Shown here one piece after another: positions 4,999 through 61,621 of a DNA stretch of 64,000 bases (its first letter is position 1; each line of letters opens with the position of its first letter). The position numbers were made by a program, and so were the translations under genes. The notes under the pieces were generated by a model that had not been told where the DNA came from, ran no database searches, and was given only the letters and a program-made list of their open reading frames with translations. Source of the DNA: Rhododendron vialii (lineage: Eukaryota > Streptophyta > Magnoliopsida > Ericales > Ericaceae); the NCBI RefSeq assembly GCF_030253575.1, contig NC_080567.1:34315501-34379500 (forward strand). Direction: 5' to 3'.

Positions 4999-5306
4999 CT
5001 CCAAACGTCTCATATTCGAATTTTCTTAAGTGCTATTAACTTCTTTAAGGCCAGTTTATACAGAATTTTGTTGTGGCTTTAATTGGAACACCCACAAGTA
5101 GACAATGTGATTAATCACCCGGATTTATCCAAGTGCTTGTATGCTGACCTAGATACCTTTACATGTAACATTACTTCAGGATAAGGAAAAACACATGCAA
5201 ATGGATCAAATTGGGATATGCCTATTTAGTCATTTTCTAACTTACGTAAAGGTGACGGCCCTTAAAATTCTACCTACGGACCATAGAATTTTCCACAATA
5301 TTTCCC

Positions 5307-5314
5307 TATAAGTA
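5307..5314 (+). promoter_or_regulatory. TATA box of the intact PR-1 gene
   Basis: TATAAGTA lies 44 bases before the ATG at 5358. Its surroundings (TTTCCCTATA...GTACCCCATGACC) are shared with PR-1 copy C at about 8147-8181, which supports a conserved core promoter. Confidence 0.6.
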
Positions 5315-5357
5315 CCCCATGACCATCTCCCACATTCTTCATTCACAAAACTTAAAA

Positions 5358-5855
5358 ATGGGATCATCAAGTGATATCACCTCCTTGGCACTTGTTTCTC
5401 TCACGCTCTTAGCAATGCTCCATTCCTCCCATGGCCAAAACTCCCAGCAAGACTACCTCAACGCCCACAACTCCGCTCGATCAGCCGTCGGGGTGGGCCC
5501 CATGACCTGGGACGCCAACGTGGCAGCATTTGCCCAGCAATACGCCAACCAACGTGCCGGCGACTGCGCCCTTAAGCATTCTGGAGGCGGAGGAAAGTAC
5601 GGCGAGAACATCGCCGTTGGAGGTGGTGACTTCACCGGGGCCGCGGCAGTGGGCCTGTGGGTCGGAGAGAAGCCCTATTACAACTATAACTCAAACACGT
5701 GCGCTGCTGGCCGGGTGTGCGGGCACTACACTCAGGTGGTTTGGAGGAAATCGGTTCGTCTTGGGTGTGCTAGGGTTCGGTGCAACAGCGGGTCGTGGTT
5801 CATTACTTGTAACTATGATCCACCAGGCAACTACGTTGGGCAACGCCCTTACTAG
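5358..5855 (+). CDS. PR1: Pathogenesis-related protein 1 (PR-1), basic type
   Basis: Secreted defence protein of the CAP superfamily, 165 residues, single exon, the usual PR-1 length. Residues 1-26 form a signal peptide (hydrophobic stretch [13 protein letters not shown], cleavage after SSHG). The mature part carries the CAP signatures GHYTQVVW and [11 protein letters not shown], six cysteines for three disulfides, and the conserved histidines of the CAP cavity (LKHS and GHYTQ). The carboxy end [15 protein letters not shown] has the pattern from which the CAPE peptide is released in tomato. More Lys/Arg than Asp/Glu, so probably basic. I chose the ATG at 5358 because it begins the signal peptide and matches the start in copy C; an in-frame ATG 39 bases upstream lies in the leader. 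It is the only working copy of three. PR-1 genes are usually salicylate-responsive, but no element here was proven. Confidence 0.95.
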
Positions 5856-8471: not shown

Positions 8472-9411
8472 CCTGTTTACACCATTTATTAACACTACAT
8501 CGAATGATGACACGTGTCATGATTAGTGGTTAATTTGGCCTAATATAGCAGTTTATCCTTCTTTCAAAGGCAGTCACACATAAGATTAATAAAATGGACT
8601 AAGTTAATTAGTCGAGTGTTTTCCTAACTGTTTGTTACACATGGCAGACGATTATAACGTGAACTCGATTACAAGAAGATACAGAGCAGTTCGTTAACCG
8701 CCCAACCCAGAAGTTTGAAAAAGGGAACTGCCCAAATTTAAATCAAGGGAGGGAAAGTACTCAGATTCAAATTCAAGATGAGAAGATGACTTATAAATAG
8801 AAGTATTGAAGAAGTTTACAAGGACACCCAATCGCCCAACGGCTTATCTTTTTATCTTTTCAAGGAGTAGTTGTAACTTGTAATCATTCACTCGATTGTT
8901 CCAATTACGGATGATGCTATGGTGTCCCCGGTCATTTTAGGGACACCATAATTTTTGGCATAACTTTACCATTATGAGTATAACTAAAACCAATTACAAG
9001 CATAACAGAACCCAAACAAGGCATAACCAAGGAATATCCAAAAAACCAACCAAGGCATAACTAAACCCAACCAATGCATAACAAATATCTTATGCCTTGC
9101 TATGGTTTTGGTTATGCCTTGCTATGGTTCTGTTATGCTTGTAATGGGTTTTGGTTATACCCATAATGGTTTTGTTATGCCAAAAGTTACGGTGTCCCCA
9201 AAATGACCGGGGACACCGAAGTCATTCCCTTTACTTTAAAGATTAATAAAGTCCATTTATTATTCTTCTTCCATATTTTATCCACTTCATTGTTTGCTTT
9301 CAAAGAAGTCCTGAAAACGGCAAGGAACCAAACTCTACTTTTCCGCATTCACATTCCAGCATATATTTCAATCATCTCCATTGATTTCAATCAATCGAGA
9401 AATTTGGCAAA
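8472..9411 (+). mobile_element. Probable solo LTR inside PR-1 copy C
   Basis: Old retroelement remnant of about 640 bp excluding a nested MITE. It begins TGTTTACACC and ends GGCAAACA, with a short terminal inverted TGTTT/AAACA, and has a TATA-like TTATAAATAG near 8791. The CACC at both edges may be the target duplication, but its length is uncertain. No internal coding region is present, consistent with a solo LTR. Family not assigned; a non-coding DNA element is the alternative. Confidence 0.45.
8921..9217. mobile_element. Foldback MITE nested in the LTR remnant
   Basis: A 297-bp element that is almost one inverted repeat: the left end GGTGTCCCCGGTCATTTT pairs with the right end, and arms of GGCATAAC/GTTATGCC motifs continue to the centre near 9085. 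Each terminus is itself a small palindrome (GGTGTCCC...GGGACACC). No clean target duplication was seen. It entered after the host insertion, giving a gene > LTR > MITE nesting. Confidence 0.75.
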
Positions 9412-10319
9412 CACCGCTATTGTGGGCCTGTGGGCCGCAGAGAAGCCCAATTACGACTATAACTCGAATTCGTGCGCTGCTGGCCAGGTGTGTGGGCACT
9501 GCACTCAAATGGTCTCGATGAATTCAGTTCGGCACGGGTGCGCTAGGGTTCAGTGCGACAATGGATGGTGGTTCATTACTTGTAACTATGATCCACCTGG
9601 CAACTACGTTGGGCAGCGCCCTTACTAGAGGCATAAGTTCATGTAGTCTATATAAATCAACTATGTTATATGCTTTCAAGCTGCAACCGTATAAATTAAA
9701 CTCTCGAAGAAATTATTTCCCTTTGCACCGGCTTTTTGCGGGAACACTTCATTAAAAATGGTGTCAAACCGGTTCAAAACCTACCAGTTCATACAGGACT
9801 TTATCCTAATTTTAATCAAGGTGCGCTCGCGTAAAGTGTATCCTGGAACTCTAAGTTATCGGGAGAAAAGAACGTTAACGATAGATCCGAAATTATTCAC
9901 ACTGTTCTACCAGGAAATAGGAATGCTGTGGAAAAATAGAGGCAAATGCAATGATCGATGCATTTCCCGTTGACGAAGACCCCATTGTCGACCCTCGGTC
10001 GGTCTTCTGAGCCTACCAGTCTTTATGGTGTAAGATGCATTCTCCACACATGACTTCGAAATTAACCTCTCTTTTTTATAACAAGGTGTCCGAAACAGCT
10101 TACGTGCATCTCCACTAAGTTTGGAGAACCATATATAAAATCACCGTCCACTAGCGAAGCCGACTTGCAAATTAACCATTGGTTTTATTATTAGTTTTGC
10201 CAACTAGAAGTTGATCGTTTTAGCATATGAAATCAGTTGGCAATGAGTGCAGAGCCTGTTCAAACTCGTATACTAGTGTCGACTTTGGAAGGGAATAATG
10301 AATTACTATGGGACACTTC

Positions 10320-17793: not shown

Positions 17794-20700
17794 TCAGATG
17801 AAGTGATAGTCAACCTCGACATGCTTGGTTCTTGCATGGAAAATAGGGTTAGAGGCCAGTGCAATAGCAGACTGATTGTCGCACCAAATCAAATGAGGCA
17901 AAGTAGGGAGAACATGAAGATCAAGAAGTAATTGTTGTACCCAAGTTACATCAGCAGCTGTCTGAGCCAGGGCTCTGTATTCAGCTTCTGTGGATGACCG
18001 TGCCACTGTGGGTTGCTTCTTAGCACACCAGGACACCAAATTTGAGCCTAGAAATAGACAGAAACCTGTTGTAGACCTTCGGTCTACATGATCCCCTGCC
18101 CAATCAGCATCACTAAATCCTGTTAAAGTTAAAGGACCAGGCATAAAGTGGAGACCCTGGTGTATGCTGCCCTTGATATACCTCAGAATACGTTTTACAG
18201 CTACATAATTACTCTGTCTTGGGGCATGCATATGTTGACAAGCAAGGTTGACAGCAAAAGAAATCTCAGGTTTAGTTAAGGTAAGATACTGAAGAGAACC
18301 AACCACTGTTCTGTACCAATGTGGATTCTCAAAATAAGGATCAGGATCTAAGAGAGCAGGTTTGGTAGAAGATGGTGAAGGACTAGGTTTGCATTCATAC
18401 ATTCCAGCTTTAACAAGTAGATCAGTAGCATATTTGCTTTGAGAAAGAATAATGTTCTTACCATGTCTCAGAACTTCGAGACCCAGAAAATTGCTAAGAG
18501 TGCCAAGATCCTTCATCACAAACCTGGAACTGAGAATCTTGATAAGCTCGTTAATGTAAGACGTGTTACTACCAGTGATGAGAATGTCATCAACATACAC
18601 AAGCACTAAAGTAAGGCCTTGATCTGTCTTGAGAGAAAAGAGAGAAGGATCTGCCTTGCTATTGATAAATCCATGTTGAATAAGAAAACTGGAAAATAGA
18701 GAAAACCAAGCCCTTGGAGCTTGTCTCAGACCATATAGAGCTTTGTGCAACTTACAAACATGGTAAGGATGAGACACACTCTTGTAGCCAAGAGGTTGTT
18801 TCATATACACCTCTTCTTCAACAACTCCATGGAGAAAAGCGTTGGAGACATCAAGCTGTCTAATTGCCCAATCATAATGAACAGCAAGACTAAGAACAAC
18901 CCTGATAGTTGGTTGTTTAATGACTGGACTAAATGTTTCAGTGAAGTCTAAACCCTCTTCCTGTTGATTTCCATTGGCAACAAGTCGTGCCTTATATCGT
19001 GCCACACTGCCATCAGAATTTTGCTTAATTTTGTAAATCCATTGGCAACCTATGATATTTGCCCCTAGAGGTGGTGGAACAAGAGACCAGGTGCCTTGTT
19101 TAACCAAGGCCTGATATTCTTCAGCCACGGCAGCTTGCCACACAAAATGTTTAACAGCCTCTGAATGGTGTGTAGGTTCAGTGTTAGGGGTGGGAACAGA
19201 AGAAGTGACAGCAGTCAAACTCACAATAGTTTTAGGTTTAACTATCCCATGCTTAGCTCTAGTGGCCATAGGATGCTGATTAGTAGGAAAAGGGGTGTGT
19301 TCTGTGCACGAAACCTCAGAGGAGGAAGAAGAAGAAGAAGAAGAATGGGAACTATTAGAAGAATGATCAACAGAACTAGAAAATGGAACAAGTTCAGAAG
19401 GAGAAACAGGAGATATAAGAGGAGCTAAAGGAGAAGAAGCAGAAATAATAGGAGTGCTAGAAGGAATAGAAGTTCTAGGATCAACAAGAGGAGTAGGGAT
19501 AGAAACTGAAGTGGAATGAGATGGTGAAACAGATACAGGCACAGAGATAAGAAGATCATCAAATGAGGTTACAGGAACAGTAAAGGAAGAATCAACAGAA
19601 GATGAGTCAGATTTAGAAGAGACAAGACTGGGAGAAGGAAAACTATTTTCAAGAAATTGCACATGCCTAGAAGTGTATACCTTTGTGGTTTGAGGATCAT
19701 AACATCTGAAACCCTTAGTGTTATCACAGTAGCCTAAAAATACACATGATCTGGATTTAGGAAGTAACTTGTGACTTGTGTATGGTTTAAGCCAAGGATA
19801 GCAACAACAACCAAAGGGTTTAAGATTGTAGTAATTGGGTGTGGTGTTATACAGACGAACATAAGGAACTTGATAGTGCAAAGAAGAATGGGGTAAACGA
19901 TTGGCTAAGTAAACCGCAGTGATTAAAGCTTCGAGCCAAAAGGTAACAGGTAAACTAGCTTGAAGTAAGAGAGTGATAGTGGTTTCAATCAAATGCCGAT
20001 GTTTCCTTTCAACAACACCATTCTGTTCTGGTGTATGAGGGCAAGTTGTCTGATGAATGACACCAGTGGAAAGAAATAAATGAAGAAGAAAGTGGTTAAC
20101 AAATTCTCCTCCATTGTCACTTCTAACAATCTTAATGGAAGTACCAAATTGGTTCTGAACATAAGCCTTGAAATCCGAAATCTTGAACTTAACTTCGGAT
20201 TTATAATGCATAGGGAACAGCCAAGAAAATCTTGAGAAATCATCTATGACAAGAAGATAGTACTTGAAACCTTTATTAGAAGCCACAGGGGATGGACCCC
20301 ATACATCCATGTGTACTAACTGAAAAGGTGCTGTAGTGTGAGTTTCAGAGATAGGAAACTGAAGTTTGTGACTTTTAGCCATGTGACAACTATTACAGTC
20401 AAAAGAAACAACTCTGTCGACAGGTAAACTGAATTGTTTTATTAAGGAAACAAACAAAGGAGTACTAGGATGCCCTAGTCTTCTGTGCCAAAGCTCAGAG
20501 GAAGTAGATCTACTAAGGAAAGCAGGAACAACACCAGTGTCTGAAGTAGAAAGTGGACTAGAAGTGGATGACACTGACCTATATTGGCTCAGAATGGGGT
20601 ATAAACCCTTGTGACATGGGCCTCTGTACAGAACTTGAAGAGTGTGCTTGTCCTGGATAACAAGACCATTGGAATCAAATGTAAGCAGACAATGATTGTC

Positions 20701-20958
20701 TTTAGCAAATTGATGAACAGACAAAAGATTGTGAGTTTTATGTGGAGTACAAAGAATGTGAGAAAGCTGAAAAGTAGTATGAGGTGTTGGAAGTAAACCC
20801 GTACCAGTGTGAGTGACCTGCAGTGTATTCCCATTACCAACCATGACACCTTCATTCAGAGCTGAGGAAGGAGAATGACCCAAATTGAGGTGCTGCATAT
20901 TGTTAGTAATTTGTGGCCCCACTATCAAAATACCAAGGTTGTGAGACTGAATCATCAT
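17794..20958 (-). mobile_element. Pol region of Ty1/copia element 1
   Basis: Fossil polyprotein region. In order on the minus strand: the pre-integrase zinc motif (HRRLGHPS...CNSCHMAKS), the integrase core (HMDVWGPSP, DDFSRFSW, RSDNGGEF, EQNGVVERKHRH), a Ser/Pro-rich linker, the reverse transcriptase (PQ-less copia type with QLDVSNAFLHG and YVDDILITGS) and RNase H ([20 protein letters not shown]). This order defines Ty1/copia. Confidence 0.9.
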
Positions 20959-21362
20959 TGTAAACAGATGCAGAAGAAGAATCTAAACCATAGAAGGCAG
21001 TAGACGGTTGTGAGATGCGAGGATTTCCTTAGAAACCAGTAGAACTAGAAGGCAACTCATAACCACCAGTAAAACCAGCAAAAGCAGTTTGAACAGGTTG
21101 CATTGGGTGCACTGAATGAGTAGGAGGAGGTCTGAATCCCCCATTAGGTCTGGTCTGTCTGGTGAAATGCTGAGGAAATCTCGGTGATGATGATGAAAAA
21201 GGAGAATAAGGAGGTGCATGAAACTGATAGGAACCAGAACCAGCAAGCATAGAAGGTATCCATGGAGAGAACTGATAGGGATCTTGATAACCCCTCCACT
21301 GAGAACTTGACATACCAGTAAACCCATTGTTTGGTCTATAATAACAGTAATTAGTGGAGTGA

Positions 21363-22355
21363 TTAGTTCTGCCACATATCACAAGGTCCTTTGGGATAAT
21401 AAGGTCCTCTACTCCCTCTACCTCTTGGAAAATGTCTAAATTGCTGAGGAAACGGTTGGTGAGAGGTTGGTAGAAACTGATTAAAACCAACACCCTGAGT
21501 CGGAGATGGAAATTGGTTAAAATTAACCCCCTGAGACTGTGATGCACCAATATGAGATTGAGAAACAGAGTTAACCAAGGGCACAGAGGAAAGAATGCCT
21601 GTGTCATTATGAGATGATGTTGGATTTCCATGAGCAGCAACCAAAACGGTATTGTGCACCTCTGTCTCAGCAGTTTCTCTACTTAACTGTTGATCTTCAC
21701 TTTTCATCATTACCACAAGTTCATCAAAACTCACATTATGACCTCTGGTGCGTACAGCCCGTACAGCAGTTCTAAGACCATTAAACAAGTTAGGTAAGCC
21801 ATGTAAAGCACGAAAAACAAGTTCATCATCTTCAATTGGACTACCTGCTGCAGCCAATTTTTGTGCGATTTCCTTGATATTATCAATATAGACATCAATA
21901 GTAGATGTTTTGGTCAGATTATACAGCTGATCCCTAAGCTCTTGAACATGAGTTTCTGATAAGGTATTATAGCGATTTGATAAAGATTCCCAAACATGAT
22001 GCGCAGTGCGTAACCCTAGAACATAGGGAAGTGTGGCTTGGGAGAGAGAAGCAGTTAAACAAGACCGAAGTTGTGAATCTATCAAACGCCATAGAGAAAA
22101 GGTATTATTCAGAGTAAGTTCACCTTGAGTATCACGAACATGTGTGGCTGGAATTTCAACCGTACCATCAAGATAACCAAGAAATCCATTTGCTTCGACA
22201 ACATTCTCAACCTGAATTCTCCAAAGTAAATAGTTGGTGCTATCCAACTTGATGTTGACCAGAGAGTGCCAATTTGAAACGAGAAAGGCAAGCGCCGGAG
22301 GTAACGTAACAGCAGTGGTTGTGGTCGACATTGCAATAGTTGAATTTAATGTCAT
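21363..22355 (-). mobile_element. Gag region of Ty1/copia element 1
   Basis: Capsid-type gag of the copia UBN2/retrotran_gag kind, opening with a segment like LVNIKLDSTNYLLWRIQVEN and containing YNTLSETHVQELRDQLYNL. It ends in an Arg/Gly-rich stretch (FPRGRGSRGP). It lies next to the 5' LTR, as expected. Confidence 0.85.
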
Positions 22356-22578
22356 AATCGATAAGATCGATGACCTAATTTGCTGAATGTGGAAACGAAC
22401 AAGATTGAGAAGATAACAATGACCTAATTTCGTCGAAGAATGAGAATGATGACCTAATTTCGCTGTTGTATCAAAGAACTGTGTTTTGATCGAAGGAATG
22501 ATGACCTAATTTCGCTGTTGTATCAAAGATCAGTGTGTGAATCGAAGGATTTTCGTCTCTGTAATGGCTTTGATACCA

Positions 22579-33253: not shown

Positions 33254-33910
33254 TCAGAAAAATCCGTGGCCATAACCAATATTTTGGACATGAGGAGGGG
33301 CTGAAGAAGCATTCATCTGATAGGGTTTGATCTCAACCGAATCAACCATTCCGATACCGTTCGCTGAGAAAAATGGTGAAGGATTTACATTACCCTCCAC
33401 GAAAAGCTTATCGGTTTGATTCGTCACGTTTTTCTTGAGCACCTCCATTGAATCCCTAAGTTGCTCAAGCTCATTCAACCCCAGCTCATCTATAGGTTTT
33501 TCCCACCAATACTTCCTTTGGCTAGCTAATTTTCTCATGTGATCTAGGGTTTCACCCCTTTTTTTCTCGGCCTCTAACTCGTTGAGAACTTGAGTTAGTT
33601 GTGAATTGAGATCTCGCACACTAGCGTTCCGGTGTGCATCAATGAGGTGGCGTGTGGTGGTGTTTGGTGGAGGGTTTCGACTAAGGAATTGGTCGACAAT
33701 TGAGTCCACGTTAGGGTGACCAAAAGAAAATACTTTCCCGGCCGGAGAGAAAACTATGATAGATATTTCAACACCACAAAGCGTGCAGAGCTCACTCGCC
33801 TTTTTGAAGAGGCCAGAACGCCGTTTTGAGAAGGTGACTTGTAAGTGGTTTTTAATCTCTATTTTCGCGATCTTGATCTTTTGGCGACCCATGCTTGGCT
33901 TCTTTGCCAT
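33254..33910 (-). CDS. AGL62-like type I (M-alpha) MADS-box transcription factor
   Basis: 218 residues, intronless, as usual for type I MADS genes. MADS domain at about residues 8-67 (KIKIAKIEIKNHLQVTFSKR, then RSGLFKKASELCTLCGVEI), followed by SPAGKVFSFGHPNVDSIVDQFL, which is diagnostic for the AGL62/AGL61 M-alpha group. Residues 95-170 form a coiled coil (LNSQLTQVLNELEAEKKRGE; LGLNELEQLRDSMEVLKKN). In Arabidopsis, AGL62 controls endosperm cellularisation with AGL80-type partners in the nucleus; that role here is inferred from family. TATAAATA lies 84 bases upstream of the ATG. Its paralogue at 48483-49007 is decaying, so this copy probably carries the function. Confidence 0.92.
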   Translation of the reverse strand: MAKKPSMGRQKIKIAKIEIKNHLQVTFSKRRSGLFKKASELCTLCGVEISIIVFSPAGKVFSFGHPNVDSIVDQFLSRNPPPNTTTRHLIDAHRNASVRDLNSQLTQVLNELEAEKKRGETLDHMRKLASQRKYWWEKPIDELGLNELEQLRDSMEVLKKNVTNQTDKLFVEGNVNPSPFFSANGIGMVDSVEIKPYQMNASSAPPHVQNIGYGHGFF

Positions 33911-42615: not shown

Positions 42616-45458
42616 TTAGCTAACTAAACCCATACGCTCAACATGCTTCGAAAATACTTTAACTGTGAGCCCTTTTGTCATGGGATCTGCAACCATCAAA
42701 TCTGTACTTATATGCTCTATAATGACTTCTTGTTTCCTAACTCTCTCTCTAACAGCAAGATACTTGATGTCAATATGCTTGGTCCGACTTCCACTTTTGT
42801 TGTTGTTAGAGAAGAAAACCGCAGCCGAATTATCACAGTAAATTTTTATTGGCCTAGATATTGAGTCCACAATCTGAAGCCCTGTGATAAAATTCTTTAA
42901 CCATATAGCCTATGAACTTGCTTCAAAGCATGCTATAAACTCTGCTTTCATTGTTAACGAAGCAACAATTGTTTCCTTAGCACTCTTCCATGATACAACA
43001 CCTCCGGCTAGCATAAAAACATATCCCAAAGTGGACTTTCGAGAATCTTGACAACCCGCAAAATCTGAATCTGAATATCCAACCACTTCGAGACAGTCGA
43101 CATGCTTATAGGTAAGCACCAAGTTCTTGGTTCCTTGTAGATACCTTATAACCTTTTTAGCGGCCTTCCAATGGTCTATCCCTGGATTGCTTTGGTACCT
43201 GCCAAGCATTCCTACAGCAAATGCTATATCTGGCCTTGTGCAAACTAAGGCAGGCATCAAGCTACCTACGGCAAATGCATATGGAATACTCGTCATTTTT
43301 TCCTTCTCCAAAGCATTTTTCGGACATTGAGTCAAGCTAAATTTGTCACCCTTCAAGATAGGCGCTGCATTAGGACTACATTCACTCATGTTGAATTTCT
43401 TCAAAACTTTTTCAATGTAGGCTCTATGAGATAGTCCTAATGTTCTTTTAGATCTATCTCTATGAATCTCTATGCCTATGACATAGGAGGCTTCACCCAT
43501 ATCCTTCATTTCAAAATTTTGAGAAAGATACAATTTAGTATCTTGCAGTAGGCCCAAATCATTAGTTGCAAGCAAAATATCATCCACATATAGAACTAAG
43601 AAAATATACTTACTCCCACTGATCTTAAGGTATATACATGTATCCACAACATTCTCTGTGAAACCATAAGAAGTAATGACATTGTGAAATTTTAAATACC
43701 ATTGTCGGGAGGCTTGTTTTAGTCCATATATAGATTTCTTAAGTTTGCAAACTAAGTGACTATTTTTATCAGAATAGAAACCCTCAGGTTGCTTCATGTA
43801 TACTTCTTCTTCAAGATCCCCATTTAAGAATGTTGTTTTGACATCCATCTGATGTAACTCTAAATCAAAGTGAGCTATTAATGCCATAATTATTCTAAAT
43901 GAATTCTTCTTAGAAATTGGAGAAAAAGTATTATGGTAATCAATGCCTTCTCTTTGAGTGAAACCCTTGGCTACAAGTCTAGACTTATATCGTTCAATGT
44001 TACCATTCGAGTCTGTTTTAGTCTTATAGACCCATTTACAGCCAACTGCTTTGACTCCTCTAGGTAACTCTACAATTTCCCAAACTTGATTCTTAGCCAT
44101 GGACTCCATCTCTTCCTTCATGGCTTCATACCAATAATTAGAATCTTCCCCGTTCACAGCATCAGTAAATGAAATAGGATCATCTTTAGGTCCAATGTCA
44201 TAATCAGACTCCATCAAGTACACTAAATAATCACTAGACATGGCTAACTTCTTTATTCTTGAGGATTTTCGTATTTCTACAACCTCATTTACATTTGGAG
44301 GATTTTGAGTTGAAGAATCTGTGTTAACTTGCCTTTGTTGATTAGTTGGAGCTTCTCCATTTTCATGTTCATGAAGAATATCTTGCTGGCTATCTTGTAT
44401 GACAACCAATTTTCCTTCATTCTCAGGCATAGTAATAGAATTCGGTGATTGCTCCTACTCAATTCTTTGGGATTTACTCCCACTTATGTCAATATCCTCA
44501 ATGAACTTAGCATTTCTAGCCTCAACAATTCTAGGTGTGTGTGAAGGACAATAAAACTTATAGCCCTTTGACTTTTTTGCATAGCCAATGAAATATCCAC
44601 TTACTATTCTTGAGTCTAGCTTCTTTAATTGTGGATTATATACTTTAACCTCAACTGGACAGCCCCATATATGCATATGTCTCAAACTCGGTTTCCATCA
44701 TTTCCATAACTCAAAAGGCGTTTTAGGAACTGCTTTAGATGGAACCCTGTTTAAGATGTATACTACTGTCTTTAAGGCTTCACTCCACAAAAATTTAGGA
44801 ACACTAGAGTTGCTAAGCATACTCCTTACCATATCCATAAGAGTACGATTTCGCCTTTCTGCTACACCATTTTGTTGTGGTGTACCCGACATGGTATACT
44901 GAGCAATAATGCCTTCATCCTTTAGAAAATTAGCAAATGGACCCGGTCTTGTCCCATTTCTGTGTATCTACCATAATATTCTCCACCCTTATCAGATCGG
45001 ACTATCTTGATTTGTTTTCCTAATTGTTTCTCTACTTCTTTCTTATATTCCTTAAAAGCATCAAATGCCTCAGATTTATTAAACAGAAGATAGAGATACA
45101 TAAATCGAGAATAATCATCAATGAATGAGATAAAATATCTCTGACCATTTAAGCAAGGAGTAGAAAATTCACAGATATCAGTGTGAATGACTTCAAGTAG
45201 TCCATCACTCCTTTTGGCACCCTTACTGTTCTTGTTGGTCTGCTTTCCTTTTATGCAGGCCACACAAGTACCGAAGTTGGAAAAATCTAAAGTCGTCAGC
45301 ACTCCATCTTTTACCAACCTCTTAATCCTATCCTTGGAGATGTGTCCCAATCTCCTATGCCATAATGCGGAGGATGTCTCATCAATAATGTTACGCTTAG
45401 TGCCAATGTCAACATGCAGGGTTAAAAGACTTTGTTCAAAATTAGGATCCAAATTCAA
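42616..45458 (-). mobile_element. Pol region of Ty1/copia element 2
   Basis: Fossil. On the minus strand in order: pre-integrase motif (WHRRLGHISKDRI; CVACIKGKQ), integrase core ([43 protein letters not shown]), reverse transcriptase (HQMDVKTTFLNGDLEEEVYM; YVDDILLATND) and RNase H (GYSDSDFAGCQDS). Several breaks. Confidence 0.85.
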
Positions 45459-45602
45459 TTTGTATAAACCACTAACAAGTGAACCAGAACCAACAACTGA
45501 AGTATCTTTAATAAAATAAAAATGTGGTCCACTAAATTTAAACTCAAAACCATACGGTACTTGTTTAGATACAGAAATCAGATTCTTAGAAAACGATGGA
45601 AT

Positions 45603-46653
45603 CTAAAATGTGTTTACAAGATCTAAAACAAAACCACTTTCTAAAACTAGTCTAAAAGTTCCCACAGCTTCAACGTGTGAACGCATCCCATTTCCAGAGT
45701 AGATGCCTTGTTCACTTCCAGTCGATTTCCTTAGGCTGAGAAATCCCTGCATGATATTGGCAATGTGAATTGTAGTACCCGAATCAATCCACCAATCATT
45801 TTGATGAACATTGACAAAATTTGACTCATAACACACTAGAGACCAAAGATTACCTTTCTTTTTAAGCCAGTCCTTATACTTAGAGCAATCCTTCATGTGT
45901 CCTTTTTTCTTGCAGAAGAAACAAGCATCCTTCTTGCCATGACGCTTAAAAGATTGTTTTCCAATCTTCTTCAAATTTGGACCATTCTTGCCTTTCTTTC
46001 CTTGTTCAACTTTATGTGTCGCAAAATGAGCACTCTCTATATTCTCATGCTTCAACCTCTCGTCTTCTTGAACACACATGGTAAGAAGTTCATTGATGGA
46101 CCATTTTTCCTTATGTGTGTTGTAAGAAATTTTGAATGGTCCAAACTCAGCAGGAAGAGAATTGAGTATGAAATGAACAAGGAATGAGTCAGATATCTCA
46201 ATCTCCACGGACTTCAAGCGAGCCACGATGTCCCTCATTTCCATAATGTGTTCACGCACACTCCTAGAACTGTTATGTTTCATTCCTGATAACCTATTCA
46301 TCAAGTGCCTTATCAGAACTAACAAACTGCTCTTCAATAGCCTTCATGTAGTCATTTACCTTGTCGCATGACGGGATCGAGTTTCTGATGCTAGAACTGA
46401 TATGAGTCTTTATAAGCATCAAACTTAAGCGATTAGATCGCTCCCAACGATCATAGGCAACCCTAACCGCAATTGAACTCTCGTTCGTGGGCTTTGGTGG
46501 TTCATCCTCACGAATTGCCAAATCGAGATCCATACACCCTAATGCCAAAAGGACTTTGTCCTTCCACTCCGAAAAATTTTCACCACTTAAGAACGGAATA
46601 CGAGAAGACTCACTAGACATTAAAGAGGTAGTACCAACTGCAATATTAACCAA
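45603..46653 (-). mobile_element. Gag region of Ty1/copia element 2
   Basis: Copia gag with an N-terminal IPFLSGENFSEWKDKVLLAL segment, a central helical part, and a CCHC zinc knuckle (CFFCKKKGHMKDC). A protease-type segment (WWIDSGTTIHIAN) follows at its end. Confidence 0.8.
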
Positions 46654-48482: not shown

Positions 48483-49007
48483 TTATGCTTCCCTCCATGA
48501 AAAGCTTGTTCGCATGATCTTTGCATTTTTCTTGTGCTCCTCCATTGAATCCCTAAGTTGTTCAAGCTTATTTAAACCTAGCTCATCTATAGGTTTCTCC
48601 CCCCAATACTTCCTTTGCCTAACTAATTGCCTCTTGTGATCTAGGGTCTCACCCCTTTTTTTCTCGGTCTCTAATTGGTTGAGAAGTTGAGTGAGTTGTG
48701 AATTGAGATTGCTCACACCAGCGTTCCGGTGAGTCTCGATAAGGTGCCGCAAGGTGGAGTTTGGTGGAGGGCTTCGACTAAGGAATTGGTCGGTGATTGA
48801 GTCCACGTTAGGGTGACCAAAGGAAAATACTTTCCCTGCAGGAGAGTAAACTATGATAGCGATTTCAACGCCACAAAGCATGCAAAGTTCACTCGCCTTC
48901 TTGAACAGACCAGAACGTCGTTTCGAGAAGGTGACTTGTAAGTGGTTTTTTTTGTCTATTTTCGCGATTTTGATCTTTCGAGGACCCATGCTTGGCTTCT
49001 TTGCCAT
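48483..49007 (-). pseudogene. AGL62-like MADS paralogue, decaying
   Basis: Paralogue of 33254-33910: MADS domain (KIKIAKIDKKNHLQVTFSKR..CMLCGVEIAIIVYSPAG) and coiled coil are well kept, giving 174 residues before a stop. Relative to the paralogue, one base is missing just after the LEQLRDSMEEHKKN segment. The remaining 3' part is still recognisable out of frame (FGYGHGCF end, stop at 48343), so about 45 residues are lost. The TATAAATA box of the paralogue is mutated here, and a Mutator-like foldback sits about 520 bases upstream. A truncated protein with DNA-binding and dimerisation parts could still be made, so 'pseudogene' is a judgement. Homologous flanks on both sides show origin by segmental duplication. 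Confidence 0.75.
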
Positions 49008-53688: not shown

Positions 53689-54087
53689 TCAGGAGCTTGG
53701 ACCCTCCCCAAGATCAAACGATGAAGGATTCGCGGCCTCCTGCTCCTTGAGTCCAACCACTCTCTCCCTCACCTTCTCCCTAAGCTTCACCATTTTATCT
53801 CTCAGTTCCACAAGCTGTTCCAAACTGAGTTCCTTCATGGGAACCCTCAGCAAGGGATTCTTGTTCTTTTCAGCCTCACCCGCTTTGCGAAGCTCTTCGG
53901 CTCGCTTCTTTTCGACTTCCAGTGCATTTTTCGATGCAATAAGCTCGTTGTTTAGCTTATCGAGGTTATGCTCTCTTGCCTGATTGGAAACGCAAGATCG
54001 TCGCCTAAAAAAGATTAGTCCTATTTTGCGCGCATTTCTTATTTTCACCCTCCTGACGTTTTGACCGCCCACATTTTTCTTATCCAT
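53689..54087 (-). CDS. Miniature MADS-derived protein lacking most of the MADS core
   Basis: 132 residues, single exon. Begins MDKKN, then a reduced MADS start (RRVKIRNARKIGLIFFRRRS) and jumps at once to NQAREHNLDKLNNEL, which aligns with the region after the MADS domain in AGL62-like genes. About 60 residues are missing (KKASELCxLCGVE through HLIDAHR), including the MADS beta strands. The coiled coil is kept (ALEVEKKRAEELRK; PMKELSLEQLVELRDKMVKLRE) and the end is GEGPSS. The paralogue at 61184-61621 has nearly the same deletion and the same ends, so the form is inherited, not a fresh error. Retained frame and a TATAAATA box 76 bases upstream argue for expression. It could act as a dimerising inhibitor; that is inference. 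Confidence 0.7.
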   Translation of the reverse strand: MDKKNVGGQNVRRVKIRNARKIGLIFFRRRSCVSNQAREHNLDKLNNELIASKNALEVEKKRAEELRKAGEAEKNKNPLLRVPMKELSLEQLVELRDKMVKLREKVRERVVGLKEQEAANPSSFDLGEGPSS

Positions 54088-55188: not shown

Positions 55189-56800
55189 TCAGTAAAACCC
55201 ACCACCAGAACCGGCGCCATCACCGCCACGTCCATAAGAACTTGTTTGTTGAGAAAATGGAAAAGCACCGCCGCGACTTCCACTGCCACTGCCAAAAGAA
55301 CTTGGTCGTGAAGGAAATGACAGAGCACCACCTTGTCCAAAAGAACTCGGCCCTGGAGGAACCGGAAAGATATTGCCATCATCGCCACGTCCAGAAGAAC
55401 TTGATTCGCCAGGAAATGGCAGAGTACCACTAATACTACTGATGCCTCCGAGAGAAGTACTAGGCCATGTGGAAAATGGCAGAGCACCATCACCACCTCC
55501 AAAAGAACTTGAACCCCTAGAAAATGGCAAAACACCACTGCCACCGCCTCTGGAAAAATCCTTCCCTATGGAAAATGGCAAGGCATCACCAACTCCAAAA
55601 GAATTCGGCCCTGTCGAAAATGTTGGAGTGCCACCACCTCCTCTAGAAAAATTTGGCCCTGTCGAAAATGACAGAGCACCACCAGAACTGCCACCTGCTC
55701 CAAAAGAATTTGGTCCTGTCGGAAATGACAGAGCGCCACCAGTACCACCACCACCTCGGAAAAGACGCGACCCTTTGAGAAATTGCGAAACACAAATACC
55801 ACGTTCTCCAAAAGAACTTGGACCAGGGGGGAAAGAGAAAACATCAGTACCACCTCCTCCTAAAGAACTCGTCCCTGCGCCAAATGGAAAAAAACTTTAA
55901 GAAGTCGACATGTTCAAAAATTTCAAGATAAGTATGAGTCCTTTTTGTATAATCTTGCTATTAAACCCATTGGTTAGACATTTTCATTCATTTTCTTAGA
56001 AACTGTTGATCACTTGCATGGTGTGATTCATGTATGCAATTAATTAAATAACGCTAAAACGGAGAAAATAATTAATCATCAGGAAATACAAGCACCTCCA
56101 CCTCCAAAAGAACCTGACCCTGCAAGAAATGGGAAAAGTTTAAAAATTGCATACCTCCAAAAATTCAACATAATTATGGTGCTTTTAAAGAACTAACGGA
56201 GAATTAATCGAATCAAGCACACGCACCTCCACCTCCAAAAGAACTCAATCCCTGCGAAAAGTTCGAAGGATTTTGTTGGTGCTCTTGCATGAACTTTTCA
56301 CTTTGCTTTTCCACGTTAGCCTTGAGCCCTTCCATGGCACCTTCCAACTCCATAAGCTCATCCAAGTTCAGCTCCTGAAGAGGAGCCTTCCACTGGCATT
56401 GACGATGGCTCCTGCTCAAAGCTATAGCATGGTCAAGCACAGTTGCACGCTGCCTCTCGACTTCTAACATAGCCTGTATGTTGGCCAGCTTGATATTGAG
56501 GTCATGAGCACAGGCGTTCCGATGAGCCTCCATGAGCTGGTTGGTGGGGCGGGATGGTGGAGGGGTCCCAGTCAGGAACCTGTTAGTGATTTCTTCCACA
56601 CTAGGGTGGCCAAAGGAGAAGACCTTATGGCCGGGTGAAAAAACGATGATCACCACCTCGACGCCACAAAGAATGGCTATCTCACTGGCCTTCTTGAAAA
56701 GGCCAGAACGACGTTTCGAAAAGGTTACTTGGAGGTTGCTTTCATTTTCTATCCTGGCCATGGCAATCCTTTGGCGACCCTTACTAGTCCTCCTTGGCAT
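55189..56800 (-). CDS. AGL62-like MADS protein with a long Phe-Gly repeat tail
   Basis: Exons 56800-56227, 56119-56096 (24 bp) and 55874-55189, GT-AG introns, all phase 1, giving 427 residues. MADS domain at residues 7-67 (QRIAMARIENESNLQVTFSK; ASEIAILCGVEVVIIVFSPG), then the AGL62-type FSFGHPSVEEITNRFL and a coiled coil at 95-172. From about 185 the protein is a disordered tail: GLSSFGGGG from exon 1, GSGSFGGGG from the microexon, then about twelve degenerate units such as GALSFPTGPNSFGAG and NIFPVPPGPSSFGQG. The final exon is open for 228 codons with no stop, which would be unlikely in unspliced junk. If the first intron is retained the protein ends at 195 residues (..GGGGACA). A TATAAATA box lies 115 bases upstream. 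The fusion of a type I MADS factor to FG-like repeats is not one I know from the family. Confidence 0.75.
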
Positions 56801-56914: not shown

Positions 56915-56922
56915 TATTTATA
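56915..56922 (-). promoter_or_regulatory. TATA box of the MADS-FG gene
   Basis: TATAAATA on the minus strand, 115 bases before the ATG at 56800. Confidence 0.6.
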
Positions 56923-56999: not shown

Positions 57000-58491
57000 T
57001 TTTTATTTAGATAACTCAGACGTCCGGGCCAGTAAGTGCCGTTATTCGTTGGAAATCTGCATATTTATGAGTGGCTAGTTATGGACAATTTGTTTTCTTT
57101 CCTATCTAATCTACATACGGAATTGAACATTCTTATGAGTTGGTTATTGTCCTGGTTGGGTGTTTTTGAAATGAGTTTGACTGATTATTGCTATGCATGC
57201 ACCAAGTTTGTATAGGCCTTATTGGGAATTTTGCCTTGTTATAGTAAGTTTTTTTATTCCAGTTTTTTGGATATAGTTCCGAAAGCCAGCCACTTACGCC
57301 ATAGGGCCACGAATAGAGGTTTTTCGAAAGTCCATTGTCTTCTGCCATTTTCTTTTGTTTTTTTAAACGACTACAAAGATTAAGCGAAACAATGGCGGCA
57401 AAAGTCACCCAAGACCACCGAAAAAAGACAACAAGATGCCAAGTAGGGTAAAAGCACAGTCGACAATGTTGAGAATTAAAAAATGTACATAAATTCTTTT
57501 AATAAATAAGCGGAACCTTAATTAGGACTCTAAACAGGGCCGCATTGGAGGGACCGCGCTTACGTGACATCATAAATGTGGTTAATTTTCCAGATTTAAG
57601 TCATATCTACGGAATTCAATGAAAACGCTCTTTGTGGAGTACTAGTATTTTGTCTAAATTAAGTTGCAAAATACAGTGTGTGGAATCTCTTAATTAAAAA
57701 ATGGCGATGGAGACTGTGTCCTAATTAATGGAGAAAGTTAAAATAAATGTGTGTAGATTTTGCTTTAAATGATTGTGGTGTTGGCAATATCTGGGAAATT
57801 AAACCACGTTCAATTTCGAAACGGTAGGCGAAATTAAAATCACGATACTACTAAACGTGGAAAAATCATCAATGTGTCTCGAACTAGTTTTATTAAAATC
57901 ACAATACTACGAGTTAATCGTGTTGAGCTTATCTCTATTGGGATAGTACGTACCCGTATATATATATCCGCGTGTATTTGGGTAGTGTTTCGAATTGACC
58001 GCATTATATGTTTTGAATTAGGCTTGTCTGCAGTCTATACGTGAACTGTCGGACAGTGTTTTTAACAGTTGAGATTTATAAAAAAAAATTCCCGGGAAAA
58101 AGTTTTATAAAGTTTGGATCATTTGATGCAAAGATGAACGGCTGAAATTAGACTGCATGGACTCTCTGTAGTCCAACTGCAAAGAATCCATCTCGTATAT
58201 TTTATGCACATGTAATATATACTGTATAGTTGCAATACTTGAAGTAGAGAAACAAAACAAATTGACATACTTCGATATACCGTAAGTAACCTTAGTTTTA
58301 ACACCAAGTTAACATGGTTAACATATTATGGACTCAAATTTTGTTTAATCAAATTAAAATTCAAACCATTTTTATTGAAGGAGAAAAAACTACACTTGGA
58401 TTGTTGTACTGGCTGACATTCCGCTTCAGGCCGGTACAAGCCAGTGTTTTGGCCGACATCGCAAGCTTAGTTTACTGTTTTGTTTCTAATA
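57000..58491. other. Intergenic, no gene seen
   Basis: AT-rich. A few short open frames without family resemblance. Nothing repetitive apart from an ATATATATAT run near 57956. Confidence 0.4.
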
Positions 58492-61183: not shown

Positions 61184-61621
61184 TCAGGAGCTTGGACCCG
61201 CCCCGTGATGATCAAATGGAGAACGATTTGGCACGGCCAGCTTCTTCTCGATCTGATCCAATCTGTTCTCCACTTTCTCCCTCATCTCCACCAGCAATTG
61301 TATCGACTCCTCAAGCTGTCCCACGCTAAGCTCCTCAGGCGGAACTGTCAACAAGGAATACTTCTTGTTGTCGGCCTCCATTGATTCCTGACTTTCTTGA
61401 CATCTCTTCCTTTCAATTTCCACCGCACTTGTCATCGCCGCGATCTTCTTCTTTAGCTCATCAATGTGATTTTGCTCTCCGGCCTGGTTGCAAAGGCCGA
61501 TGTCATGCTCTCTGGGAACACCAAATCGGCGTTTCAGGAAAGTTAATTGTGATTTACTCGCATTCTTTACTATCACCAACATAACTTTTCGGCCATCCAA
61601 ATGTATATTTTTCTTATCCAT
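61184..61621 (-). CDS. Miniature MADS-derived protein, paralogue of 53689-54087
   Basis: 145 residues from the ATG at 61621, chosen because it starts MDKKN as in the paralogue; an in-frame ATG 27 bases upstream exists. Reduced MADS start (VIVKNASKSQLTFLKRRFGV), a short unmatched PREHDIGLC segment, then NQAGEQNHIDELKKKI and the coiled coil (AVEIERKRCQESQE; PPEELSVGQLEESIQLLVEM) and the same carboxy end GAGPSS. It lacks the MADS beta-strand region like its paralogue. The two differ at about half of positions, so both have stayed open through considerable divergence, which suggests constraint. TATAAATA lies 75 bases upstream. It lies next to a second MADS-FG gene, repeating the order at 53.7-56.8 kb. 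Confidence 0.7.
   Translation of the reverse strand: MDKKNIHLDGRKVMLVIVKNASKSQLTFLKRRFGVPREHDIGLCNQAGEQNHIDELKKKIAAMTSAVEIERKRCQESQESMEADNKKYSLLTVPPEELSVGQLEESIQLLVEMREKVENRLDQIEKKLAVPNRSPFDHHGAGPSS

Follow-up and report, generated by a model that had tools for sequence, protein, structure and literature searches.

Type I MADS-box factors of the AGL62-like kind are usually short proteins whose genes have few or no introns, and the locus analysed here raises the question of whether such a factor can be joined, by splicing, to a long repetitive tail. An original prediction had read the locus in this way, as a type I MADS factor whose first exon is continued, via a microexon, by a long exon of repeats. 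Our analysis of the window (the whole stretch of 64,000 nucleotides of Rhododendron vialii DNA) supports that reading for two diverged tandem genes, here called A and B, and reproduces exactly the exon coordinates and the two junctions proposed for gene A (56227/56119 and 56096/55874), both of them GT-AG and in phase 1. The resulting model, derived from the sequence, is well supported. Gene A lies on the minus strand. Its exon 1 (56800-56227, 574 nt) encodes the MADS domain and a coiled-coil region, and reaches a phase-1 donor with ..LSSFGGGG as its last residues. Intron 1 (56226-56120, 107 nt, GT-AG, phase 1) leads to a microexon of 24 nt (56119-56096), which encodes one SGSFGGGG module and has relatives in the microexon-intron units of B; intron 2 (56095-55875, 221 nt, GT-AG, phase 1), which corresponds to the last of the gene B introns, then precedes the tail exon (55874-55189, 686 nt), with 227 codons of degenerate PSSFGxGGALPF-type repeats and a stop. 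Judged by eye, two of the splice donors in the gene models, GTGCTT and GTCGAG, do not look strong. Once spliced, the coding sequence of 1284 nt gives a protein of 427 residues, in which the SRF-type MADS domain reaches 87.8 bits (Pfam cut-off 26), while the K-box remains sub-threshold (13.4 bits against a cut-off of 30). A structure model of the exon-1 protein (mean pLDDT 57, with 4 sequences in the alignment) predicts helices at residues 84-132 and 146-176, after the MADS region.

The model is raised above chance by the existence of a tandem relative with a like architecture and by an open tail frame common to both. Gene B, the MADS gene that follows on the minus strand, has the architecture, exon order and phases of gene A: (i) a MADS exon lying just beyond the window (window-equivalent 64066-64999, minus strand); (ii) a first microexon of 24 nt (63914-63891, minus strand), which becomes 30 nt with the next donor, GAG/GTATTT, the phase being unchanged; (iii) a second microexon of 36 nt (63774-63739, minus strand); and (iv) a tail exon (63551-62602, minus strand) with 315 codons and a stop, in which gene A-type repeats are followed by an RG-rich run and then by SPSGxGGALxIG-type repeats. 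In total, gene B has 3 introns and encodes 647 residues, compared with 2 introns in gene A; its MADS domain scores 84 bits against the cut-off of 26, and the K-box is absent from its Pfam matches at E up to 1. Gene B also carries an N-terminal extension of ~109 residues made of Asp/Gln/Pro-rich repeats (window-equivalent 64673-64999, minus strand), which is absent in gene A, and the gene B TATA box sits before this extension. The two genes have their upstream sequences in common as well. A TATA box, TATAAATA, is located 122 nt upstream of the start of gene A (56915-56922, minus strand) and also 115 nt upstream of that of gene B, and a block of ~150 bp (57062-57211, minus strand) is 81% identical between them, the genome search with this block having given just two copies, those of A and B. 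A tree built from 11 MADS proteins of this genome groups A and B as sisters (support 0.983) and places nearest to the pair a contig C5 gene (support 0.757) that encodes a short, Gly/Ser-rich C-terminus.

We take A and B to be AGL62-like (M-alpha*) genes, a family label that is our assumption, the tree having used 11 proteins of this genome only. With AGL62-like proteins they have in common the SRF-type MADS domain, the coiled-coil region and the lack of a K-box above the cut-off, and alignments of gene A with several family members in this genome extend over ~163-193 residues. They depart from the AGL62-like norm in their 2 or 3 introns, in the repeat tail and in their lengths of 427 and 647 residues; the neighbouring AGL62-like gene of the window (33257-33910, minus strand) is a single frame of 218 residues and has no tail. 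A further tail-less AGL62-like gene lies at 48486-49007 (minus strand); near its end it diverges from the 33257-33910 gene and its continuation is found in a different frame, the pattern that a frameshift would leave.

Is the tail really coding? The earlier claim that the repeat exon is fully open holds: in gene A the coding frame contains 0 stops, and the same is true of gene B. Just one frame is free of stops in both copies; of the remaining frames, the two sense ones contain 2 and 10 stops in A and 7 and 12 in B, and the antisense ones 3-7. Openness by itself was nonetheless rejected as proof of coding, because long ORFs also occur in other frames and on the antisense strand; stops are rare in the repeat, and a 215-codon antisense ORF overlaps the gene A tail, so that an open tail, taken alone, is weak evidence. 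In neutral simulations that started from the present stop-free sequences and included no indels, the frame was still open in 946 of 4000 runs for A and 701 of 4000 for B at 0.1 substitutions per site, in 251 and 152 of 4000 at 0.2, and in 89 and 30 of 4000 at 0.3. The two tails themselves are ~65-71% identical and have kept the frame without a stop. The same long ORFs, antisense and in other frames, are what would favour the tail exon being a separate gene, or the repeats being non-coding, and we consider this very unlikely, on three grounds. A single frame is fully open in both copies; the TATA box and the upstream block common to A and B both stand before the MADS exon; and there is no Met in the gene A tail exon or in the open stretch before it (the gene B tail has two, at codons 22 and 72), which means that the gene A tail exon needs an upstream exon. 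The separate gene that the original prediction had named as the contrary outcome is therefore improbable.

The comparison of A with B gives further information about the frame. When the full tail exons were aligned as DNA with MAFFT, 10 of 10 gaps were multiples of three under all three settings, and with gene B cut before its RG run the counts were 9/9, 9/10 and 9/9; exon 1 gave 3/3. As a comparison, the last intron gave 2/5, 1/6 and 2/5, the 5' block 1/2, 1/3 and 1/2, and the 3' flank, which overlaps a companion ORF described below, 10/15 or 10/16. With BLAST, all 8 of the 8 blocks between the tails begin in the same phase, and 515 of the 537 aligned bases of the best block are in phase, but just 12 of its 18 gaps are multiples of three. 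The argument from gap lengths is accordingly weakened, since it depends on the aligner (10/10 with MAFFT, 12/18 with BLAST). In that same block, differences fall on the three codon positions 48, 32 and 46 times (of ~171 each), the third position being no faster than the first.

A similar caution applies to dN/dS. Between the tails it is 0.47 when the alignment is guided by the protein (0.51 in an initial estimate) and 0.56 when guided by the DNA (bootstrap 0.40-0.81, gene B cut to its first 213 codons). Although the initial value of 0.51 looked like constraint, we rejected it as proof of constraint on residues, because wrong frames equal it: sense frame 1 gives 0.49 protein-guided and 0.60 DNA-guided, and antisense frame 1 gives 0.41, with protein-guided values of 0.91 for sense frame 2 and 0.60 and 0.98 for antisense frames 0 and 2. 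The true frame being no lower than sense frame 1 or antisense frame 1, the frame has been kept but the comparison lends no support to selection at the level of residues. Elsewhere in the two proteins, protein-guided dN/dS is 0.30 (0.14-0.78) in the MADS region and 0.72 (0.46-1.20) in the coiled-coil region.

That the tail dN/dS is not specific to the frame, and that third codon positions do not outpace the first, would both be expected if the working product were a short MADS plus coiled-coil protein ending in intron 1, the tail being rarely spliced in and drifting as a near-neutral minisatellite. Such a product would have a canonical length, which retention of intron 1 provides, and PMC13293092 describes many M-type genes as barely expressed and some as pseudogenes. 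Set against this are the same stop-free frame found in both tails in spite of their ~65-71% identity, and the splice sites and microexon phases retained in both genes; on balance, we regard the short product as an unlikely explanation, and prefer the reading in which the tail is spliced to the MADS exon and translated.

The introns suggest how the edge of the tail might have been formed. All five introns of A and B are related, 8 of the 10 pairs beating all 200 single-base shuffles; for intron 1 of gene A, 3 of 200 shuffles were as good in the comparison with intron 2 of gene B, and 72 of 200 in that with its intron 3. An SSFGGGG-like module is also repeated at each exon edge. Because the introns are related and the module recurs at the exon edges, the microexons, one in A and two in B, look like copies of a unit composed of an exon end and its intron. 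Their lengths of 24 and 36 nt preserve the frame, so that the skipping of one of them would remove a module and nothing more. Retention has a different outcome: in any of the five introns, 4-7 codons are read and then a stop is reached, with the protein ending after GACA if intron 1 of gene A is retained, which leaves it at canonical length, and after GACIS if intron 2 is. Since the starts of the introns are themselves related, these stops may reflect inheritance rather than selection.

What kind of sequence is the tail? The sequence repeats in tandem in a degenerate form; the periods in A are 48 and 57 bp, the strongest self-match in B is at 45 bp, and PSSFGxGG-ALPFP conveys the idea of a consensus. 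Gly and Phe make up 29.5% and 10.7% of tail A and 31.9% and 6.4% of tail B, and 19 RG pairs are present in tail B. Neither tail exon matched a Pfam family at E up to 1, NCBIfam (a collection of bacterial and archaeal families) yielded no relative of the two tails, and the gene A tail has no match in the PDB. Modelled alone with AlphaFold2, the gene A tail is predicted to be unstructured (mean pLDDT 38), low pLDDT obtained with no alignment, as here, being weak evidence of disorder. In our reading, which rests in part on this model, the tail is a Gly/Ser/Phe/Pro coding minisatellite and probably disordered.

The original prediction had likened the tail to FG-nucleoporin or prion-like sequence, and neither likeness survived. 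In the Asn/Gln sense of the word, prion-like fails, since N+Q amounts to just 3.3% in tail A and 3.1% in tail B. As regards the nucleoporins, SSFG motifs do recur above shuffles, which could suggest a region contacting nuclear pores or importins; indeed SFG, SSFG and GA[LF][PS]F are all far above shuffles of equal composition, but the bare FG pair is not, and an excess of SFG, SSFG and LPF-type motifs is what a repeated unit is expected to produce. FG pairs number 8 in tail A against 7.6 expected from shuffles and 7 in tail B against 7.4, that is, without enrichment, whereas a Nup98-type exon of this genome has 18 against 3.4 expected, a value that none of 2000 shuffles reached. The yardstick is one FG-rich frame, truncated at the edge of the sequence piece compared, upstream of one of the four matches to the Nup98 C-terminal domain in the genome. 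Charged residues separate them too, with 8.6% in tail A and 9.2% in tail B compared with 1.4% in the Nup98-type exon. A search across the genome with the nucleoporin profile PF13634 gave no match anywhere, the controls being likewise silent, so that it does not bear on the question. With FG pairs at the expectation from composition, a higher charge, a Nup98-type exon that is clearly different and no Pfam match, the identity of the tail as an FG-nucleoporin was rejected, and its contact with the nuclear pore appears extremely improbable.

Parallels for the tails may be sought elsewhere. The hnRNP A1, keratin-head and RGG-kind domains are of low complexity and rich in Gly and Ser, with spaced aromatic residues. 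Tails A and B resemble them in these features, and tail B also in its RG pairs; they differ from this group in that no RNA-binding domain was found and the tail is joined to a MADS domain. Another parallel is NUP98-HOXA9, in which, according to PMC8983581, a disordered FG region combined with a DNA-binding domain leads to nuclear puncta that weaken when FG motifs are fewer. The likeness lies in the fusion of a DNA-binding domain to a long, probably disordered region containing Phe, Gly and Ser. In contrast with NUP98-HOXA9, genes A and B are native tandem genes and not the product of a translocation, and their tail is C-terminal and without FG enrichment. The NUP98 fusion constructs reported in the same text carried 38, 30, 21 or 17 FG motifs, 38 being the number in NUP98-HOXA9, and the 8 and 7 pairs of tails A and B are well below these figures, for which reason a flexible and multivalent region with a milder effect is the more probable reading. 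Even the NUP98-HOXA9 puncta are described there as not colocalised with pores, a further point against a nucleoporin-like role for the tail. Condensate formation through the tail, which had been part of the original prediction, is possible by analogy.

In the genome (532.6 Mb in 13 contigs), searches with the tail exons pointed to genes A and B only, among the best candidates scored (5 and 4), and none of 17 other genome pieces scanned, including 10 around other MADS genes and 3 flanks, contained a repeat frame of the tail type. Literature searches, run on a collection that lacks many subscription journals, listed no description of a MADS domain fused to an FG- or Gly-rich repeat tail. With regard to its origin, the tail might have grown from a Gly/Ser-rich C-terminus like that of the relative on contig C5; the number of shuffles reaching the observed score (25 of 1000 for A, 203 of 1000 for B) makes this only suggestive.

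Each of the two genes is followed downstream by a companion ORF on the minus strand with no Pfam MADS match. The one downstream of gene A (53689-54087) is related to the AGL62-like coiled-coil region, and in the one downstream of gene B (61184-61621) a degenerate half was seen by eye. The first matches the second with E 5.1e-14, and it also matches the coiled-coil region of AGL62-like genes, gene A (E 0.004) and the 33-kb gene (E 2.9e-4) among them. Compared with each other over 128 codons, the companions have an in-frame dN/dS of 0.47, a value for which no interval was computed, against 0.91 and 1.17 in the other sense frames; the lengths of all 5 gaps are divisible by three, and 9-10 stops interrupt the other sense frames. 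To judge from these sequences, gene and companion seem to have been duplicated together as a block. As a guess, the companion ORFs are candidate microproteins or decoys. The window contains other features as well: a copia-type retrotransposon (17797-22505, minus strand) whose gag and pol frames are long and open, two of its pieces having matched in Pfam; a second copia-type element in several pieces (42913-46343, minus strand), with an RVT_2 match in a 514-codon piece and the rest seen by eye; a CAP/PR-1-type gene identified with Pfam (5259-5852, plus strand); and a shorter CAP/PR-1-type copy (9167-9625, plus strand), which matches the second half of the Pfam domain only.

The architecture of the two genes, their common open frame, their related introns and the stops reached upon intron retention can all be read from the DNA, and they are best explained if two tandem AGL62-like genes each encode, by splicing, a protein composed of a MADS domain, a coiled-coil region and a long disordered repeat tail. 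The tail would be a coding minisatellite grown in place at the 3' end of the gene, its edge being carried on phase-1 microexons of 24-36 nt that would derive from a duplicated unit of exon end plus intron. We give this gene model, together with growth of the repeat in place, a probability of about 0.7, and for the spliced MADS-tail protein in itself our confidence is high. The long form would come from spliced transcripts, whereas retention or early polyadenylation would give a short AGL62-like protein of canonical length. More conjecturally, DNA-bound dimers formed through the MADS domain might display flexible tails, in which Phe, and in B also Arg, would provide weak, sticky contacts for the recruitment of partners or for clustering of the factor. 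That the tail acts as a multivalent interaction region is a tentative proposal, drawn from analogy and somewhat short of an even chance. The site of action may be the nuclei of the endosperm, by family precedent: PMC13293092 reports that AGL62-like M-alpha* proteins form heterodimers with M-gamma partners and act as regulators of endosperm growth and of hybrid seed barriers. An extended version would make A and B a native plant analogue of the fusions between transcription factors and low-complexity regions, with clustering in endosperm nuclei driven by the tail, a valence set by splicing and by minisatellite length (retention dropping the tail, each in-frame microexon adding one SSFGGGG module) and the MADS-less companion acting as a decoy; this analogy we regard as speculative and rather doubtful.

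According to PMC13293092, endosperm growth and the failure of hybrid seeds are under the control of AGL62-like factors. A C-terminus that has turned into a changing coding minisatellite, added or dropped by splicing, would represent a route for the divergence of AGL62-like factors, and the A/B pair would offer a simple test of how a low-complexity tail affects the action of a plant MADS factor.
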